64,000 nt of DNA from an uncultured Sulfurovum sp. (GTDB lineage Bacteria; Campylobacterota; Campylobacteria; Campylobacterales; Sulfurovaceae). Positions 30,898-45,065 of the stretch are shown here, piece after piece; the first letter of the stretch is position 1, and each line of letters begins with the position of its first letter. A program made the position numbers and the translations under genes. Under the pieces are notes generated by a model. It worked only from the letters and a program-made list of their open reading frames with translations. It ran no database searches and was not told the DNA's origin. The DNA is taken from contig CACVAS010000170.1 in the NCBI GenBank assembly GCA_902727855.1, positions 62,001 to 126,000 on the forward strand, given 5' to 3'.

Positions 30898-31006
30898 CTT
30901 TTTTTTCTTTTGTCATAGAAACAGCATTGTCCATACCTTGAATCATAAGATAGACGCCTCCAGCAAAAAGAGCTAGTACAATGAGGGGTGCAAGTTTTTG
31001 AAACAT
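30884..31006 (-). CDS. Small single-helix membrane protein (40 residues)
   Basis: A short frame, [25 protein letters not shown] followed by a charged tail ending KEKKVIEK (given here in two parts). TTAAGGATTGATTGT precedes the ATG, a good ribosome site. One hydrophobic helix with a short basic/acidic tail suggests an inner-membrane small protein. The gene overlaps the 3' end of pyrF by 14 bp in the opposite direction. I do not know the function. Its signals look real, but such short frames need support from conservation. Confidence 0.6.
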
Positions 31007-31088
31007 ACAATCAATCCTTAATTTTTAAGCATCATACCACAAAGTTAATTATTTTTCATTATAATTATATATACAAAAGGGAGAATTT

Positions 31089-31547
31089 ATGAGTGGGAAG
31101 AAAGATATAAACCGTATACGAGAACTAATTTTTGGTAAAGATATAGAACGTTTTGATGAAGCATTTAGCACTATCAATGGTGAATTAGAGCATATGAAGT
31201 CTGAACAAAATATGTTTGAAAAAAGAATGTTAAAACAGTTTACCCAAATGGAAACAGTGATGAATGACCTAAAAGAAACGCAGTCAGATATTGCGAAAGG
31301 TTTACGTTATCAAGGTCATAAAATGGATCTTTATGTAGAAGAGATGGACATGTCTCTTAAAAAATCTTTAGAACAATCATCAAATGAACTGAAGCAACTT
31401 AAAAATGAGTTAAAAATGCATATTGAAGCGAAATTAACTCAGATGAATAGAGTTAAAATTTCTCATAATGAATTATCTGAAATATTTTCTTCTCTTTCTA
31501 CAGAATTAAAAGTGACAGACAATACTGATACATATGCAAGAAAATAA
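31089..31547 (+). CDS. Coiled-coil protein heading the GTPase module
   Basis: A 152-residue, nearly all-helical protein with long heptad-like stretches (LEHMKSEQNMFEKRMLKQF; KKSLEQSSNELKQLKNEL). No membrane segment. The N-terminal motif RIRELIFGKDIERFDEAF resembles LKSLLFEEEMDTFKNLEEKI at the start of the next protein, so both may share a docking element. AAAGGGAGAATTT precedes the ATG. The next gene begins 14 bp before this one ends, implying coupled expression. Function is inferred only from the module: perhaps a scaffold or regulator of the GTPase. Confidence 0.75.
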   Translation: MSGKKDINRIRELIFGKDIERFDEAFSTINGELEHMKSEQNMFEKRMLKQFTQMETVMNDLKETQSDIAKGLRYQGHKMDLYVEEMDMSLKKSLEQSSNELKQLKNELKMHIEAKLTQMNRVKISHNELSEIFSSLSTELKVTDNTDTYARK

Positions 31548-33414
31548 TACTGAAATAGGTGAATTAAAGTCTCTACTCTTTGAAGAAGAGATGGATACAT
31601 TTAAGAATCTTGAAGAAAAAATAAGTAACCTTAGTTTTGAGCTTAACAACACAGAACAAATTATTACCAGAATATCTCCTCTTTTTAATGACGTACTTAG
31701 AGAGAAACTACAACAAAAAGATAGTCAAACTATAGAAATATATGCAAACTCTTTAGCTGAGATTATCAATAAAAGTGCCAAGCAAGACCTTCCTAATTTA
31801 AGTCGTTCCCTTCAAAGTGTTATCTCTCCTGCTATTGCAAAAGAAATCGATGATAATAAAGACAAAATGGTTGATGCACTTTACCCCATTATGGGTTCTA
31901 TGATTTCTAAGTATGTGAGTAATGCGATACAAGAGATGATGGATACAATTAATAAAAAGATTGATGAAGGTCTTTCTGTTGATAAGTATAAACGTAAAAT
32001 TAAATCTAGGGTATCAGGTGTCAGTGAAACAGAACTTCTTTTAGAAGAAAATAATGATGCTCTTATGTCATCTATTTTTGTCATACATAAAGAGAGTGGT
32101 TTACTGATTGCAGAAGCACATTTAGAAAATCAGGAGATAAATGATCCTCATATGGTAGCTTCTATGGCATCTGCTATTAAAGATTTTATTAATGATTGGA
32201 TAAGTCAAAATGAAGAACCAGATGAAGTTCAACTGCTAAGCTATGGGAATGCTACACTCTATATAGAAAGTGCTGGTACAGTGTACCAAATTGTTTTTTT
32301 AGAGAGTGAACCTGATCATATACAACGTAAGTCTATACAAAGTTTCTTTAGTAAAATTGTGAAGAATTACAGCCATTTCTTTCCTACTTTTGATGGTGAT
32401 GACAGTGCTGTAGAGATTAAGCATATACAAAAAGAGATGCAGCTATTTTTAAACCAGCAACATAAAAAAAATGCGTACAAGCATAAAAAAAAGAGTAATA
32501 TTGCTAAATATATTTTATTTGGATTATTGGTATTGTTTTTAGTTTATCTAGGGATTCAACTGAAACAACAGTACGATAACTATAGGCTGGAGCAAACTAT
32601 TTTAGCCAAAACCAATGAAGAGGTAAGGATAGATACTAATGAAAACATCCTTCAAGTCAATGGGTATGTTCGGTCGCAAGAGCATTATAATTTAATTGAA
32701 AATATTTTAAATAAAGAGGGTGACTACACTATCATCAACAAAATGTATTTACCCTTAGCTGAAATAGAAAAAAAAGTTTTAAAAGAGAATACTGCTTTAG
32801 TTACCTTATCTAAAAACTTGACCCTTAAAGTAGATAGCCTTAGCAATGATTTGAATAAGTTACAACTTGAGTTAGATAAACTCAAACAAGTAAAAAGTAC
32901 AAATAATACAATGAATATAGAAACCTATACAAAAGGTATATTAAGCAATAATTTTAGACATATAAAAAGTTTTAATGCAGATAACGCTTCATTTACTTTT
33001 AATAATCCATTACTTTTTGAAATAGGTAAACCTACTTTGAGTTTAGAAGCTTTAGAAGAATTAGGTATACTATGTAAGGAATACATTGAGGTGTTACTAA
33101 ATGATACGAATATCGCACCATATATTAAGTCTATTAATATTGAATCATATACTGATTCAGAAGGTGACACTATTTTAAATAAAGAGTTGTCCTATGCTAG
33201 GGCAAAACAGTTAAAAAAGTATTTACTCGCTTTCAAAGGTTATAATTTAAAGCATGAAGTCATAGATAAGCTAGATACTTTATTACATATTAAAGGTATG
33301 GGAAGTAGTGATCTTATATATACAAATGGTATAGAAGACCGTACTGATTCTAGACGAATAAAAGTGAATTTTACATATGATTATAAAAAAATGGCAAAGA
33401 AGTTAACGTTATGA
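31534..33414 (+). CDS. Trans-envelope protein: roadblock/longin-like region, one TM helix, OmpA domain
   Basis: A 626-residue protein. Residues 1-180 are helical (FEEEMDTFKNLEEKIS; DALYPIMGSMISKYVSNAIQ). About 182-290 form an alpha/beta region beginning SSIFVIHKESGLLIAEA, which looks like the roadblock/longin-type domains that bind Ras-like GTPases. A single helix (YILFGLLVLFLVYLGIQL, about 324-342) crosses the inner membrane, a BON-like stretch follows (ILQVNGYVRSQEHYNLIENIL), then a coiled coil, then an OmpA peptidoglycan-binding domain (ESYTDSEGDTILNKELSYARA). It would link a cytoplasmic GTPase to the cell wall. Relatives beside Rab-like GTPases exist in other bacteria as far as I recall; none has a settled function. 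Confidence 0.75.
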   Translation: MQENNTEIGELKSLLFEEEMDTFKNLEEKISNLSFELNNTEQIITRISPLFNDVLREKLQQKDSQTIEIYANSLAEIINKSAKQDLPNLSRSLQSVISPAIAKEIDDNKDKMVDALYPIMGSMISKYVSNAIQEMMDTINKKIDEGLSVDKYKRKIKSRVSGVSETELLLEENNDALMSSIFVIHKESGLLIAEAHLENQEINDPHMVASMASAIKDFINDWISQNEEPDEVQLLSYGNATLYIESAGTVYQIVFLESEPDHIQRKSIQSFFSKIVKNYSHFFPTFDGDDSAVEIKHIQKEMQLFLNQQHKKNAYKHKKKSNIAKYILFGLLVLFLVYLGIQLKQQYDNYRLEQTILAKTNEEVRIDTNENILQVNGYVRSQEHYNLIENILNKEGDYTIINKMYLPLAEIEKKVLKENTALVTLSKNLTLKVDSLSNDLNKLQLELDKLKQVKSTNNTMNIETYTKGILSNNFRHIKSFNADNASFTFNNPLLFEIGKPTLSLEALEELGILCKEYIEVLLNDTNIAPYIKSINIESYTDSEGDTILNKELSYARAKQLKKYLLAFKGYNLKHEVIDKLDTLLHIKGMGSSDLIYTNGIEDRTDSRRIKVNFTYDYKKMAKKLTL

Positions 33415-33418
33415 AAAG

Positions 33419-33892
33419 ATGATAAGAAAAAAAATATTGTTACTAGGTGATTTTGCTGTAGGTAAAACAAGTTTAATAAGAAGATATGTAGACAATGCTT
33501 TTGACGATTCATATCTTACTACTATTGGTGTTAAAATTTCTAAGAAACTTTTTGTGATGAATGAGATTGAAGTTGAAATGATTATTTGGGATGTTGAAGG
33601 AACAACGCCAACGAAAGTAATCCCTTTGCATTACTTAAAGGGTGCAAGTGGGGCTATTTTTGTTACAGATGTCAACAGAAGTGAAACCCTTTTAAGTTTA
33701 GAAACACATAAAAATGACTTTTTCTCCCAAAATCCAGAAGCTTCTTTTGTTGTAGCTCACAACAAGGCTGACTTGCTCTCGACAGAACAGAAAAAGCAAT
33801 ATGAGAATGATGAAGACACATTTTTAACGTCTGCAAAAGACAATATTAATGTAGAAAATATTTTTTCTGCATTATTTGATAAGATGCTATGA
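33419..33892 (+). CDS. Rab/Ras-like small GTPase
   Basis: A 157-residue small GTPase with all five G boxes: G1 GDFAVGKTS, G2/Rab-like switch I LTTIGVKI, G3 WDVEGT, G4 NKAD and G5 TSAKD. No lipidation cysteine is present at the C-terminus. Two catalytic positions differ from Ras: Phe at the G12 equivalent and Thr where Gln61 would follow DxxG, so intrinsic GTP hydrolysis should be slow without a helper protein. The start lies 4 bp after the OmpA gene, and the stop overlaps the next start (ATGA). Confidence 0.88.
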   Translation: MIRKKILLLGDFAVGKTSLIRRYVDNAFDDSYLTTIGVKISKKLFVMNEIEVEMIIWDVEGTTPTKVIPLHYLKGASGAIFVTDVNRSETLLSLETHKNDFFSQNPEASFVVAHNKADLLSTEQKKQYENDEDTFLTSAKDNINVENIFSALFDKML

Positions 33893-35097
33893 ATTCACTT
33901 ATGTCTAAAAATGATAAAGAGATTTTGTTAGATATATTTTTATCTAAAAATATGTTTGAATATATTGTTTTAGATCACGAATTAAATATAGAGAATTGCT
34001 CTAAAAATACTCATATGTATGTAGATTGTATTTTATCTAAGGGTGATACAATATTTTCCTCTTTCCCAGAACTGGTTGGTTATGAGGAAGAATTAGAAAA
34101 TGTTTTAAATCATCATAGTAGAGAGTTCACGCTTGAAACTGTGTATAAAAATAAATATTATGTTACGATTACTATAGAACCCTATGGTAGTAATAAATTG
34201 TTATTATTTATGAAAAATATCACAGATATTTTAGTATCAAAACAACAAATTTTACAATACAGTAATGAATCTCTTTTGTTAAATGCAACGTTGCAAAAAA
34301 TATTAGATAGTCAAAATGCCTATGTTTTTGTGGTTTATAAGGAAAAAATAACATTTGTCAATAAAAGATTTACAGAATATTTTGATGTAAATGTTCTAGA
34401 TAGTAAAACTGGAGATAAGTTAAAAATTTATCAATATTTAGATATTAGAATAAATGGATATGATGAACTATTTATACACTTACAAAATAAAGAAGAGACT
34501 ATTGTTATTAACAATGATACATTTATTTTGAAAGCGTCTATTGTAGAGTCTACACATCAACTTTTTACCTTAACTAAAGTGACTGATATATCTAACAAAC
34601 TACAATTTGACCCTTTAACTTCTGCCTATAGGAAAGAGTTTTTTCACAAACAATTAGATCAATTTATGTCACTTGAAGAAGAAGGAGTGTTGGTTTTATT
34701 TGATATTGATGATTTTAAACAAATTGAAGAAGGGTATGGAAATGAAGTTGCAAACAGTGTATTGCAAGAGTTTGCTATGTTAATTAAAGATAATATTAGA
34801 GATAAGGATACTTTTGCTCGTTGGAGAGAGGAAGAATTTTTACTTCTTTTACGAAATATATCTTTAGATCAAGCTATGATAAAAATAAAAAGTCTTTCTG
34901 ATATTGTTTCAGAATATATGTATCCGTCTGTGAGTCGTTTAACATGTTGTATAGGCTTAGCTTCGAAATGTGAGAATGATACAGCTGATTCTTTATTACT
35001 TCGTGCAGATCAAGCACTTTTTGAAGCTAAAAAAGCTGGAAAAAACCATATTGTTAAAAAAATATTAAAAAGTAAAAATAAGACTTCTAAAAGATAG
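33889..35097 (+). CDS. PAS-domain protein with degenerate GGDEF domain
   Basis: A 402-residue cytoplasmic protein. The N-terminal half has one or two PAS-like segments (FEYIVLDHELNIENCSKN; AYVFVVYKEKITFVNKRF). The C-terminal half is a GGDEF domain (DPLTSAYRKEFFHKQLD; VLVLFDIDDFKQIEEGYG). The signature loop reads RWREEEFLLLL, so both glycines of GG(D/E)EF are replaced. Diguanylate cyclase activity is therefore unlikely, and it may bind nucleotide or act as a signalling adaptor. The start overlaps the GTPase stop, placing it in the same module. Confidence 0.85.
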   Translation: MNSLMSKNDKEILLDIFLSKNMFEYIVLDHELNIENCSKNTHMYVDCILSKGDTIFSSFPELVGYEEELENVLNHHSREFTLETVYKNKYYVTITIEPYGSNKLLLFMKNITDILVSKQQILQYSNESLLLNATLQKILDSQNAYVFVVYKEKITFVNKRFTEYFDVNVLDSKTGDKLKIYQYLDIRINGYDELFIHLQNKEETIVINNDTFILKASIVESTHQLFTLTKVTDISNKLQFDPLTSAYRKEFFHKQLDQFMSLEEEGVLVLFDIDDFKQIEEGYGNEVANSVLQEFAMLIKDNIRDKDTFARWREEEFLLLLRNISLDQAMIKIKSLSDIVSEYMYPSVSRLTCCIGLASKCENDTADSLLLRADQALFEAKKAGKNHIVKKILKSKNKTSKR

Positions 35098-35152: not shown

Positions 35153-35243
35153 GGAGAGTTGGGAGAGCTGGTTTAATCCGCGCCCCTGCTAAGGGTGTGT
35201 AGCTTCACGGCTACCGAGGGTTCGAATCCCTCACTCTCCGCCA
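35153..35243 (+). tRNA. tRNA-Ser (anticodon GCU)
   Basis: A 91-base tRNA with encoded CCA. The acceptor GGAGAGT pairs with ACTCTCC. The anticodon stem CGCCC/GGGTG holds the loop CTGCTAA (anticodon GCT). A long variable arm (GTAGCTTCACGGCTAC hairpin) marks it as serine class, and GAGGGTTCGAATCCCTC is the T arm. It reads AGC/AGU codons. A run of T follows and may end transcription. Confidence 0.97.
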
Positions 35244-35326
35244 CTTTTTTAATAACTTTCAATCTAATATTTTTTATAATTTCATGACAATTTGAGACCT
35301 TTTTTTCATATCGAGTATGATTGTAC

Positions 35327-35332
35327 TATACT
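35327..35332 (+). promoter_or_regulatory. Candidate -10 box of a leaderless promoter (Y-family polymerase)
   Basis: TATACT stands six bases before the ATG at 35339. The ORF upstream begins only at a TTG with no homology. No usual ribosome site separates the box and start, so transcription may begin at the start codon. Confidence 0.45.
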
Positions 35333-35338
35333 TATGGG

Positions 35339-36604
35339 ATGTTTCTTCATATAGATATAGATAGTTTTTTTGCCTCAGCAGAACGTAGTAGAGATGACAC
35401 ATTAAAAGGGATACCTATGTGTGTAGGATCTCGCTCGAATTTGGAAATATTTAATAAAAAACGTACATATATACGGCTCATAAATGATAATGCTGGTGCT
35501 TTTGTTGCACCTGTTTTTTATAGTCAACAAGAGAAAACGTTTGAGAATTATTTTGTAGATACTATAGATGGCAAAAAAAAGATACGAGGTATAGTTACCA
35601 CAGCATCGTATGAAGCTAGAGCTTGTGGAGTGAAGACAGCCATGCCGATATCTCAGGCACTTCAGCTTTGTCCTAGTATGGTAGTTATACCTTCCAATTA
35701 CCCACTTTATCATAAACTGTCACACGGTATACATGCCTTTATGATGGCACATATGCCAAAGGTGGAGCAGTTTAGTATAGATGAGTTCTTTTGTGATGTC
35801 AGTGGATGGAAAAGTGATGCAGAAGTCTATGACTTTTCAAAAATGATTCAGGCTAAGATTTTGTCCCATTTTGATATACCTGTCTCTATAGGCATCTCTA
35901 AATCAAAATGGATAGCGAAGTTAGCCACAGAGTCTGCTAAACCTTATGGTGTCTATGAAGTAAAAGATATAGATGCCTATATTGAGAATATACCTATTGC
36001 GGAGTTTCCTGGTATTGGTAGAGGGTTTCAAGCTAGGTTGGCAAAATATTACATTTCTACATTGGGTGACATTAAAAGGCATAAATCTCTTTTTTATTCT
36101 TGGAAAAAACCAGGTATCCAACTTTATGGACGCGTAACAGGAATATCTGATGAAGGTATCAGTGAAAGAGGTGAACGAAAATCTATAGGTATTAGTAGAA
36201 CTTTTGACGCCATAGACAATAAAAATGAAATACATAGACGTATTATGATTATGGCCCGGCATATTGTCTATATGACACTAGATATTGGCGCGAACCCTAC
36301 AACATATTATTTGAAAATTAATTATGAATATGGCATAAAAAAAAAGCAGAGTAGAACGGTAGATAGGCTTTTTTCCGAAAAACTATTTAAACAGATGCTA
36401 TCTAAAATGTTTTATGACATGGCATTAGATAAGGGGGCGATAAAGCTTTCTATTAATGTATCGAACTTCACCTCTGGGCATCCTAAGACACTGTCACTAT
36501 TGAACCTTGATGAAGATATTTCCGAAAAAGAATTAAGTGAAAATATCCAAAAACTTAGAGAAAGTTTTGGATTAGATATTATTAAAACAGGGAATGAACT
36601 TTAA
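35339..36604 (+). CDS. Y-family translesion DNA polymerase (DinB/UmuC-like)
   Basis: A 421-residue polymerase starting MFLHIDIDSFFASAE, which carries the first metal-binding Asp. VTTASYEARACGVKTAMPISQA and the catalytic pair in FSIDEFFCDVSGW follow, then SIGISKSKWIAKLATESAKP and a helix-hairpin-helix segment (PGIGRGFQARLAKY). An insert of about 45 residues (roughly 36-80) lies between PMCVGSRSN and IRGIVTTASYEA, absent from E. coli DinB. It should copy past damaged bases with low fidelity. No LexA-like operator is apparent. The gene's stop codon lies in a 30-bp repeat duplicated at 36719. Confidence 0.88.
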   Translation: MFLHIDIDSFFASAERSRDDTLKGIPMCVGSRSNLEIFNKKRTYIRLINDNAGAFVAPVFYSQQEKTFENYFVDTIDGKKKIRGIVTTASYEARACGVKTAMPISQALQLCPSMVVIPSNYPLYHKLSHGIHAFMMAHMPKVEQFSIDEFFCDVSGWKSDAEVYDFSKMIQAKILSHFDIPVSIGISKSKWIAKLATESAKPYGVYEVKDIDAYIENIPIAEFPGIGRGFQARLAKYYISTLGDIKRHKSLFYSWKKPGIQLYGRVTGISDEGISERGERKSIGISRTFDAIDNKNEIHRRIMIMARHIVYMTLDIGANPTTYYLKINYEYGIKKKQSRTVDRLFSEKLFKQMLSKMFYDMALDKGAIKLSINVSNFTSGHPKTLSLLNLDEDISEKELSENIQKLRESFGLDIIKTGNEL

Positions 36605-42571: not shown

Positions 42572-43696
42572 ATGCACCAGTTCGATAGTTCAACAGAAAC
42601 TTCTTGTATTTCACACTCATTTGCTATTTTACTCATACCTTTTTTATTTTTACTAGGTGTAATATTAGCTTTTTTTCAAGTTTTTCCGTTAAATGTTGAA
42701 GCTCATACCCTGCTTATAGTCGCATTTATATTTGTGGTATTTGTCTTTTTTGTAAAACATAATGCAAACTATGCAGTGTGTCACATGAGAGGCACATTTT
42801 CTAAAATGGAAGAAGAGTTGCATACTGCACTGCGTGATAATGCATTGACAATTATGGGAAAAACAAAGTCAACGCTTCATGTTAAAGACTTTATCTCTGA
42901 ATATTATCAAGATATACGTAATGACAATTTTGCACGTGTTGCCTCTTCTGTATTTCCAATGCTTGGTATTTTAGGTACATTTATTGCCATCGCGTTGTCG
43001 ATGCCAGATTTTTCAGTAGAAAATACAGCAGCACTGGATCATGAGATTTCAGTTTTACTCTCAGGTATTGGTACAGCATTTTATGCGTCTATTTACGGGA
43101 TTATGCTTTCACTTATATGGACATATTTTGAAAAAAGAGGTATGGCAAAAGTAGATAAACAGATACTTGAACTAGAAAAAATATATGGTTCTAGAGTATG
43201 GAAAAATGCAGAACTTTTAAAGCATCAACATATGCAAAGTGCACTGAAAGATCAAGAGATAGTTGAAACGTTAAAAGAAACATTTAACATTGACTTCATC
43301 AAACAGTTGAATGCACAGCACCTTGAGAATTATAAAGCTATTGCAGAAGAGACCAATAATAGCTTTACAAAACTCTCTGTCAATATGGAAGAGACATCCA
43401 AAGTCTTAACACAGACACTTGAGCGTGTGTATGGGAAAAAAGAGACAACCAATGCACTCTTACATATGCAAGATAATTTTACGGCTTTTAATAGCAACAC
43501 ACAAGTACTACAACACACGATGAATCGTTTTGATGAAACGATGAACCATACCTTTGGGGAGATAGACAGAGAATTGGGGCAAGCTGTAGAAAAGCTTGGT
43601 ACATTTGCACGTATTATCTCTGAACAGAATCAGCTTATACTCAATAACATTGCAACACTGAAAGAAAATGAAAAAAAATTAAACGGAAAAAAGTAA
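42572..43696 (+). CDS. ExbB/TolQ/MotA-like proton-channel protein (ZorA-like)
   Basis: A 374-residue membrane protein. It has two N-terminal helices (about 12-34 and 41-60), then the MotA/TolQ/ExbB core: VASSVFPMLGILGTFIAIALSM (about 127-147) and LLSGIGTAFYASIYGIMLSLIWTYFEKRG (about 167-195), given here in parts. A cytoplasmic, helical tail of about 170 residues follows, ending in a coiled coil. It would form the pore of a proton-driven motor with the next protein. GGATACCTC precedes the ATG. The layout resembles ZorA of Zorya, but the tail is shorter and no ZorC/D/E gene is near. Confidence 0.8.
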   Translation: MHQFDSSTETSCISHSFAILLIPFLFLLGVILAFFQVFPLNVEAHTLLIVAFIFVVFVFFVKHNANYAVCHMRGTFSKMEEELHTALRDNALTIMGKTKSTLHVKDFISEYYQDIRNDNFARVASSVFPMLGILGTFIAIALSMPDFSVENTAALDHEISVLLSGIGTAFYASIYGIMLSLIWTYFEKRGMAKVDKQILELEKIYGSRVWKNAELLKHQHMQSALKDQEIVETLKETFNIDFIKQLNAQHLENYKAIAEETNNSFTKLSVNMEETSKVLTQTLERVYGKKETTNALLHMQDNFTAFNSNTQVLQHTMNRFDETMNHTFGEIDRELGQAVEKLGTFARIISEQNQLILNNIATLKENEKKLNGKK

Positions 43697-43700
43697 TTTA

Positions 43701-45065
43701 ATGTTTCAAACTAACCAATCAGATTCTGACAGTAACTTTTGGATCTCATATGCAGATCTTATGGCTGGACTCTTGTTTGTATTTATCTTACTCATAGGTG
43801 CAATTGTTTCAAAGTCTGCTATACTTAAAGAAGAACTCCATGAGAAAAAAGACTCTTTGGCAAGTACTTTAGCGCTTATTGAGAAGAAGCAAAAAGATCT
43901 TGTAGAGAAAGAGACACTACTCACAAAAAGCAACAGTGACTTAGCCAATATAAGTATACGTGCCAAAGAACAAGAAAATACACTTTCAATGACAAATAAA
44001 AAGTTAGCAGAAAAAAGTACTGCTCTTGAAAATACTTTAGCCTTATTGAGTGAGAAAGAGAGTTACATCTTAAAAAAAGATAAATTACTTGCTGCACAAC
44101 AAGAAGAGACAGCAAAAACAAAAGAAAACTTAAGTCAAAAAGAAAAAGCATTACAAGAGGAAAATGCACGTTTGGCTCAATCTAAACTACTTCTTTCAGA
44201 AAATGAACGAGTGCTTAAACTTAAACTTAAAGAGATAGACAAATTAAATAAAATGCTTTTAGATGCAAATATGAAAGCCGATACATTAAATGGAAAGATT
44301 GTTGTTGTGCAGGCACTGTATAATAAAAGTGAAGATGACCTACAAAAGACAAAAGAACAGTTAGATGAAGAGAAAAAAACACTTGAAGATTATGAAGGTA
44401 AAGTAGTTGTCTTGTCCAATGAACTAAGTGATGCAAAAGATTCTGTAAAAATAAAAGATGAAAAATTACTCACTTTACTTACAGCAATGGATGATAAAAA
44501 AACAAAATATGATGACTTAATCGCAAACTTTCAAAAACAAAAAGCGAAGATTAAATCTTTGACTGGTATGAAATTACAGGTACTTTCATCACTCAAAAAA
44601 GCATTGGGTTCTAAAATTAATATAGACAAAAAAACAGGTTCACTCAAATTGGCTTCAAACATCTTCTTTTCTGTAGGTCAAGCTAAGTTAAAAGATGAAG
44701 CTAAGGTGGAGTTAAAGTCAGCATTTGAAGAGTACATTGGTACTTTAGTGAAAGATGAAAACATTAGACCACATTTAAGTAAAATCATCATTGAAGGACA
44801 TACTGACTCTGATGGTGGATACATTTATAACTTACAACTATCACAAAATCGTGCACTTGCTGTTATGTCATATTTACTGACATTGGATTTTTCTAAAAAA
44901 TACAATATTCAACCACTCATGACTGCTTCAGGTAGGGCATACTTAGACCCAATAGAAAAAAATGGTGTAGAAGACAAAGAGGCTTCAAGACGAATAGAAA
45001 TTAAGTTTAGACTTAAAAATGAAGATGCTATGAGTGAAATAGAGAAGGTTTTAGATGCTGAGTAA
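43701..45065 (+). CDS. MotB/ZorB-like protein: TM with Asp, long coiled coil, OmpA domain
   Basis: A 454-residue partner of the preceding gene. SNFWISYADLMAGLLFVFILLIGAI holds Asp19 at the proton-relay position of MotB/ZorB (read as SNFWISYADLM, then the helix). About 270 residues of nearly uninterrupted coiled coil follow, rich in Lys/Glu/Leu. The C-terminal OmpA domain (about 315-445) contains IIEGHTDSDGGYIYNLQLSQNRA. As a stator it would anchor the channel to peptidoglycan; the very long coiled coil is unusual for MotB. The start lies 4 bp after the previous stop. Confidence 0.82.
   Translation: MFQTNQSDSDSNFWISYADLMAGLLFVFILLIGAIVSKSAILKEELHEKKDSLASTLALIEKKQKDLVEKETLLTKSNSDLANISIRAKEQENTLSMTNKKLAEKSTALENTLALLSEKESYILKKDKLLAAQQEETAKTKENLSQKEKALQEENARLAQSKLLLSENERVLKLKLKEIDKLNKMLLDANMKADTLNGKIVVVQALYNKSEDDLQKTKEQLDEEKKTLEDYEGKVVVLSNELSDAKDSVKIKDEKLLTLLTAMDDKKTKYDDLIANFQKQKAKIKSLTGMKLQVLSSLKKALGSKINIDKKTGSLKLASNIFFSVGQAKLKDEAKVELKSAFEEYIGTLVKDENIRPHLSKIIIEGHTDSDGGYIYNLQLSQNRALAVMSYLLTLDFSKKYNIQPLMTASGRAYLDPIEKNGVEDKEASRRIEIKFRLKNEDAMSEIEKVLDAE

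Follow-up and report, generated by a model that had tools for sequence, protein, structure and literature searches.

This report concerns a four-gene operon in a 64,000-nucleotide stretch of DNA (hereafter, the window) from an uncultured Sulfurovum sp. (assembly GCA_902727855.1, contig CACVAS010000170.1, positions 62,001 to 126,000 of the forward strand). Four intact open reading frames (ORFs) lie on the plus strand between window positions 31089 and 35097, with intergenic gaps of -14, +4 and -4 bases. ORF calls, Pfam searches and structural models confirmed that the genes are real and stand in the order given by the first-pass annotation, a reading of the letters alone: a coiled-coil protein, a longin-like protein joined to an OmpA domain through a single membrane helix, a Rab/Ras-like small GTPase, and a protein with a PAS domain and a degenerate GGDEF domain. 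By its gene set and motifs, rather than by placement in a tree, the operon is assigned to the Group 1 Rup type, whose described neighbourhood comprises, beside an output module, a coiled-coil gene and one encoding a domain of unknown function (DUF), in many cases with a transmembrane helix and OmpA behind it (Wuichet and Sogaard-Andersen 2014; PMC4316618). We propose that it may form a wall-anchored small-GTPase signalling relay built around a predicted longin domain. The features on which this proposal draws are the following.

31089..31547, + strand: gene 1, 152-aa cytoplasmic coiled-coil protein (ORF call)
31534..33414, + strand: gene 2, 626-aa trans-envelope protein (helical N-terminus, longin, transmembrane helix, periplasmic coiled-coil region, OmpA)
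32062..32478, + strand: predicted longin domain of gene 2, residues 177-315 (AlphaFold2 model, PDB structural matches)
32500..32556, + strand: single transmembrane helix of gene 2, residues 323-341 (hydropathy; helix 323-344 in the AlphaFold2 model)
33016..33342, + strand: OmpA/MotB-type domain of gene 2, residues 495-603 (Pfam OmpA, E 9e-8)
33419..33892, + strand: gene 3, 157-aa Rab/Ras-like small GTPase, assigned to the Group 1 Rup type
33889..35097, + strand: gene 4, 402-aa output protein (PAS, helix, second PAS-like region, degenerate GGDEF)
33946..34335, + strand: common front end of the output proteins, a PAS fold (residues ~20-111) and a helix (112-149)
34798..34809, + strand: retained RxxD cyclic di-GMP (c-di-GMP) inhibitory-site motif RDKD, residues 304-307, five residues before the signature
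34825..34839, + strand: degenerate GG(D/E)EF signature, REEEF, residues 313-317

The region of gene 2 that had been called roadblock/longin-like (residues 182-290) has no Pfam match, and it falls within a predicted longin domain in an AlphaFold2 model of residues 1-345, built with 41 sequences and of moderate confidence (mean predicted local distance difference test, pLDDT, 69.7; predicted template modelling score 0.48). The secondary structure of the model at residues 178-318 follows the beta-beta-alpha-beta-beta-beta-alpha-alpha topology of longins. The top VIA-align matches are themselves longins, namely Trs23 of the TRAPP complex (Z 13.2), VAMP7 (12.9), Sec22b (12.7) and Fuzzy (12.1), and further matches include a Lokiarchaeal longin (11.6) and Mon1-Ccz1 (11.4). 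In these model-based comparisons, VAMP7 and Sec22b superpose over 119 and 125 residues, respectively, at 2.7-2.9 A. MglB and other roadblock proteins were also among the Foldseek matches, and a search of viral structures returned nothing useful. It is thus likely, as far as a predicted structure allows, that the DUF of the 2014 paper is a longin domain, an assignment that is new here; a search of open-licence papers for bacterial longins found nothing. Dimers of longin or roadblock domains serve as platforms for small GTPases, and longins have other roles too (PMC10933270). A regulatory function for the domain in gene 2 is therefore one that we infer.

The putative partner, gene 3, matches Pfam Ras (E 1e-24), with Rab35 and Rab3 as the best PDB matches, and its closest relatives come from Sulfurovum-labelled metagenome assemblies. 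Its length is below the <240 aa limit for Rup proteins, and the Ras-family motifs GxxxxGKTS, NKxD and SA(K/R) are kept in 53 sequences. Motifs G1, G4 and G5 are intact in gene 3, and G3 reads WDxEG, without the catalytic glutamine. At the site of that glutamine (position 62) the GTPases carry A, G, K, S, T or R and in 0/53 cases Q, and D58 is present in 53/53. The loss agrees with the description of Group 1 Rup proteins, which have no G3 glutamine and to which one might be supplied in trans (PMC4316618). No match to the roadblock family Robl_LC7 (PF03259) was found in the whole genome.

On the periplasmic side of gene 2, the OmpA domain keeps D541 in 40/43 and R556 in 42/43 directly aligned sequences, and from their positions these two residues are taken as the usual peptidoglycan-binding pair. 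The PADLOC model closest to this domain is ZorB. Elsewhere in the window (42572-45065) stands a gene pair consisting of an ExbB/MotA-like protein (374 aa) and a long coiled-coil OmpA protein (454 aa), which match PADLOC ZorA (E 2e-16) and ZorB (E 4e-55); no search was made for other Zorya genes. The OmpA domains of this pair and of gene 2 share 36% identity. On a Mesorhizobium plasmid (L155), the gene 2 homologue reaches 1021 aa, and several near-identical periplasmic repeats precede its OmpA domain. For gene 1, no Pfam family scored above the cut-off and a coiled coil is predicted; its conserved N-terminal motif reads INRIRELIFG, the relatives having VDQIRDLIFGxQ. A motif common to the N-termini of genes 1 and 2 was considered and is too weak to be claimed (E 1.3e-4 when anchored, with windows picked by motif, which favours alignment, and 0.016 when unanchored).

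The output protein, gene 4, begins with the front end that recurs in its relatives. Its predicted PAS fold scores up to Z 11.6 against photoactive yellow protein, with other PAS domains near, and its conserved residues are Q123 (48/49 sequences), N126 (49/49), and E61 and G64 (50/50), in proteins with diguanylate cyclase and histidine kinase outputs alike. In the Group 1 neighbourhoods of the 2014 survey, the output module carries an invariant N-terminal glutamine and is usually either a histidine kinase or a fusion of diguanylate cyclase and phosphodiesterase (PMC4316618).

The GGDEF domain of gene 4 is readily recognised (Pfam, E 6e-28). However, of 24 positions in this domain that are fixed in 31 aligned front-end relatives, the window protein deviates at nine, namely E280, E281, N285, A288, N289, R313, E314, C354 and F378. 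The changes include N280E, D289N and GG to RE; the first two sites, going by the motif, correspond to the guanine-binding Asn and Asp of PleD. By these residues, gene 4 has neither the signature nor the substrate-binding residues of an active diguanylate cyclase. Its RDKD motif is that of a c-di-GMP inhibitory-site receptor, and it would be a putative binding site. The inactivity of the domain, already suspected at first pass, holds for this protein alone among the aligned front-end relatives: their signatures are GGEEF or GGDEF and the active-site positions are kept in all 31, so an inactive GGDEF does not characterise the system as a whole. Since the residues that bind the substrate in a cyclase have been lost, gene 4 would here more likely act as a c-di-GMP-sensing or protein-binding adaptor.

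The lost active site raises the question of whether the operon works at all in this genome. Selection might have been relaxed and the genes, though their frames are intact, might be the decaying remnant of a relay. The identities are compatible with this, as gene 1 is a short, diverged form that shares 20-24% identity with six relatives that are themselves 59-98% identical to each other, and gene 4 shares 38-46% with its relatives when the neighbouring pyrF, ppi and nadE reach 74-89%. Nevertheless, all four frames are open and overlap or nearly do so, the N-terminal half of gene 2 is 63-68% identical to its relatives, and the residues of GTPase motifs G1-G5, of Q123/N126, of the longin region, of the OmpA domain and of the inhibitory site are kept. 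We regard decay as very improbable. The divergence of genes 4 and 1, together with the retained inhibitory site, fits an output that was retuned or partly relaxed in this lineage.

The gene order is repeated in Sulfurovum-related and other Campylobacterota genomes and on Nostoc and rhizobial plasmids, and a four-gene order recurring across these genomes and plasmids is not a chance arrangement. To follow the linkage, 175 genomes of the window's family were surveyed with the cytoplasmic half of gene 2 and the GTPase as queries. The former was found in 38 and the latter in 39 genomes, and 35 had both, several of the seven non-shared matches being located at the end of a contig or on a short one. 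Frequent occurrence of the genes apart from each other, which the first-pass annotation had named as speaking against a common module, was thus not seen. Of 54 fetched cases, 52 have the output gene immediately after the GTPase and 41 have gene 2 immediately before it; four genomes (G488, G495, G501 and G403) contain both the GTPase-output pair and the gene 1-gene 2 pair, at separate places. A search of 72,556 plasmid records gave four that match the gene 2 half and four that match the GTPase; these are identical records, and the three of them that were examined had the four-gene order. Single loci depart from the pattern: in L106 (G476:C76), gene 2 is followed by a PAS-GGDEF gene with no GTPase in between and a GTPase-histidine kinase pair stands ~8 kb further, and in L144 (G358:C69) a GTPase on a very long branch accompanies gene 2 with no recognised output gene.

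The site itself is common to relatives, as pyrF, upstream of the operon in the window (OMPdecase, E 2e-59), also lies near the operon in 13 fetched loci (77-89% identity). Between pyrF and the operon there is a tiny ORF on the minus strand (30909-31010; ~38 aa, one hydrophobic stretch). Directly 3' of the operon follow a tRNA-Ser (GCT; 35153-35243) and a Y-family DNA polymerase gene (35321-36604). The host assembly comprises 3.1 Mb in 170 contigs and is estimated to be 100% complete and 9.07% contaminated.

The same survey bears on a spatial reading, according to which the wall-bound longin-OmpA protein and the coiled coil would mark a site in the cell to which the GTPase recruits the signalling protein, for example in the control of type IV pili, as MglA does in Myxococcus. 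Scaffolds are typically laid out in this way, with a wall-anchored protein and a coiled coil, and PilT-family ATPases are found in 175/175 genomes of the family, with the flagellar FliG in almost none. The near absence of FliG also makes it unlikely that the MotB-like OmpA domain is part of a flagellar stator. However, other secretion ATPases may be among the PilT-family matches, and since the operon occurs in only about one fifth of genomes in which the PilT family is universal, it is not a core pilus regulator. A landmark of this kind seems to us quite unlikely.

What varies among the operons is the enzyme at their end. In Campylobacterota, the domain behind the PAS-helix front end is either GGDEF or a histidine kinase; in Nostoc it is a hybrid kinase, and in rhizobia probably a class III cyclase. 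In four more distant relatives (L150-L153), the GGDEF protein has no front end that could be detected. The type of output follows the clade of the GTPase: the GTPase tree requires 4 output-type changes, against 11-17 in 200 label shuffles. Moreover, four genomes (G487, G475, G483 and G458) have two GTPases with different outputs, one grouping with the kinase clade and one with the cyclase clade, a split that indicates specific pairing of GTPase and output. In L103 (G487:C92), one gene 2 is followed by two tandem GTPase-output pairs, of which one has a histidine kinase and one a GGDEF output.

A front end that stays conserved as the enzyme domain is swapped would also be expected if signalling ran in the opposite direction. 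In that case, the PAS domain of gene 4 would sense a ligand or redox state and act, through Q123, as a GTPase-activating protein (GAP), and the GTPase would direct where or when the longin-OmpA protein works on the wall. The missing G3 glutamine in all GTPases suits such an arrangement, as does the state of the window protein, in which the enzyme has lost active-site residues and the front-end and GTPase motifs are conserved; with the enzyme domain as a secondary output, its loss would be explained. On the other hand, swappable outputs usually signal a common input feeding different outputs, and the cyclase active site is kept in the 31 aligned relatives, so it matters there. We therefore consider this reverse flow unlikely, although less so than the landmark or the remnant.

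Taking these observations together, the wall-anchored relay is the explanation that we prefer, with a probability of about one half. In this relay, the OmpA domain of gene 2 would grip peptidoglycan and the protein, crossing the inner membrane once, would present its longin domain inside the cell, with gene 1 as its coiled-coil partner. The longin domain would hold the GTPase and alter its nucleotide state, in the manner of the longin platforms for Rab GTPases, and the switched GTPase would then act on the PAS-plus-helix front end of gene 4. There, the helix with Q123 and N126 might be a docking surface for the GTPase or the source of its missing catalytic glutamine, the latter an idea raised in the 2014 study (PMC4316618). 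We infer the direction of flow, the role of the longin as guanine nucleotide exchange factor or GAP, the function of the glutamine, the role of the GTPase as a switch and the coupling to peptidoglycan. Stated for Group 1 Rup operons in general, the proposal is tentative and, to our judgement, falls somewhat short of even odds: the predicted longin would be a peptidoglycan-tethered exchange factor or GAP for the Rab-like GTPase, with swappable second-messenger or kinase outputs behind a PAS-helix adaptor.

Several points weigh against the relay. The longin call comes from one model, in which the first helix of the domain (residues ~201-230) has a pLDDT of 52-56, and a PDB profile search with the cytoplasmic part of gene 2 found no solved longin or relative by sequence. 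Some longin-bearing proteins have no part in GTPase regulation, so the fold is no proof of function, and Q123 could be a structural residue. The co-occurrence of gene 2 and the GTPase, however strong in number (Fisher p=8e-29), is given by a p value that ignores shared ancestry. In rhizobia, the class III cyclase that follows the GTPase matches the front end only weakly (domain E 0.002-0.005). Finally, genes 1 and 4 are strongly diverged in the window, and the relay may be altered in this genome.

If the reading holds, a longin beside a GTPase would be a concrete candidate for a regulator, open to purification and assay, and one from bacteria and not from Asgard archaea, and the pairing would bear on the age of the longin-GTPase partnership. 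The swapping of outputs offers a natural test set for one GTPase front end driving different enzymes.

Among known systems, MglA/MglB of Myxococcus xanthus resembles the operon in pairing a small GTPase with a protein of the roadblock/longin class. In MglA, Thr78 replaces the conserved G3 residue (PMC3000849), whereas the window GTPase keeps D58, and MglB is a soluble roadblock protein whereas the domain in the window is longin-like and fused to a transmembrane helix and OmpA. Membership in MglA/MglB was excluded by D58 in 53/53 sequences and by the lack of a Robl_LC7 match in the genome. The actinobacterial conservon (CvnA-D) is likewise an operon joining a small GTPase to a sensor-type signalling protein, but it has MglB-type and MglA-type partners and a DUF and no OmpA protein. 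Eukaryotic longin platforms (the TRAPP core, Mon1-Ccz1 and Fuzzy-Inturned) also place a longin fold, here a predicted one, beside a Rab-like GTPase, yet the window protein has no sequence match to them and is anchored to the wall, not on a membrane organelle.

The closest counterpart is the Group 1 Rup system, with the same four genes, no G3 glutamine, the N-terminal glutamine, the DUF joined to a transmembrane helix and OmpA, and no MglB, to which 0/71 Rup proteins were coupled (PMC4316618). The first-pass suggestion of a separate system thus stands as regards MglA/MglB; that the four-gene set was undescribed is ruled out by its publication in 2014 (PMC4316618). Within the open-licence literature, we found no experimental work on a Group 1 Rup operon and no Rup studies after that year. 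In comparison with the published description, the DUF in the window is a predicted longin, the GGDEF domain is degenerate with its RxxD motif kept, and, beside the rhizobial Rup genes, the output position described for cyclases and kinases is taken by a class III nucleotidyl cyclase. What is new here, relative to Group 1 Rup as known, is the longin prediction, the co-occurrence, the output swapping and the degenerate cyclase in the window species.

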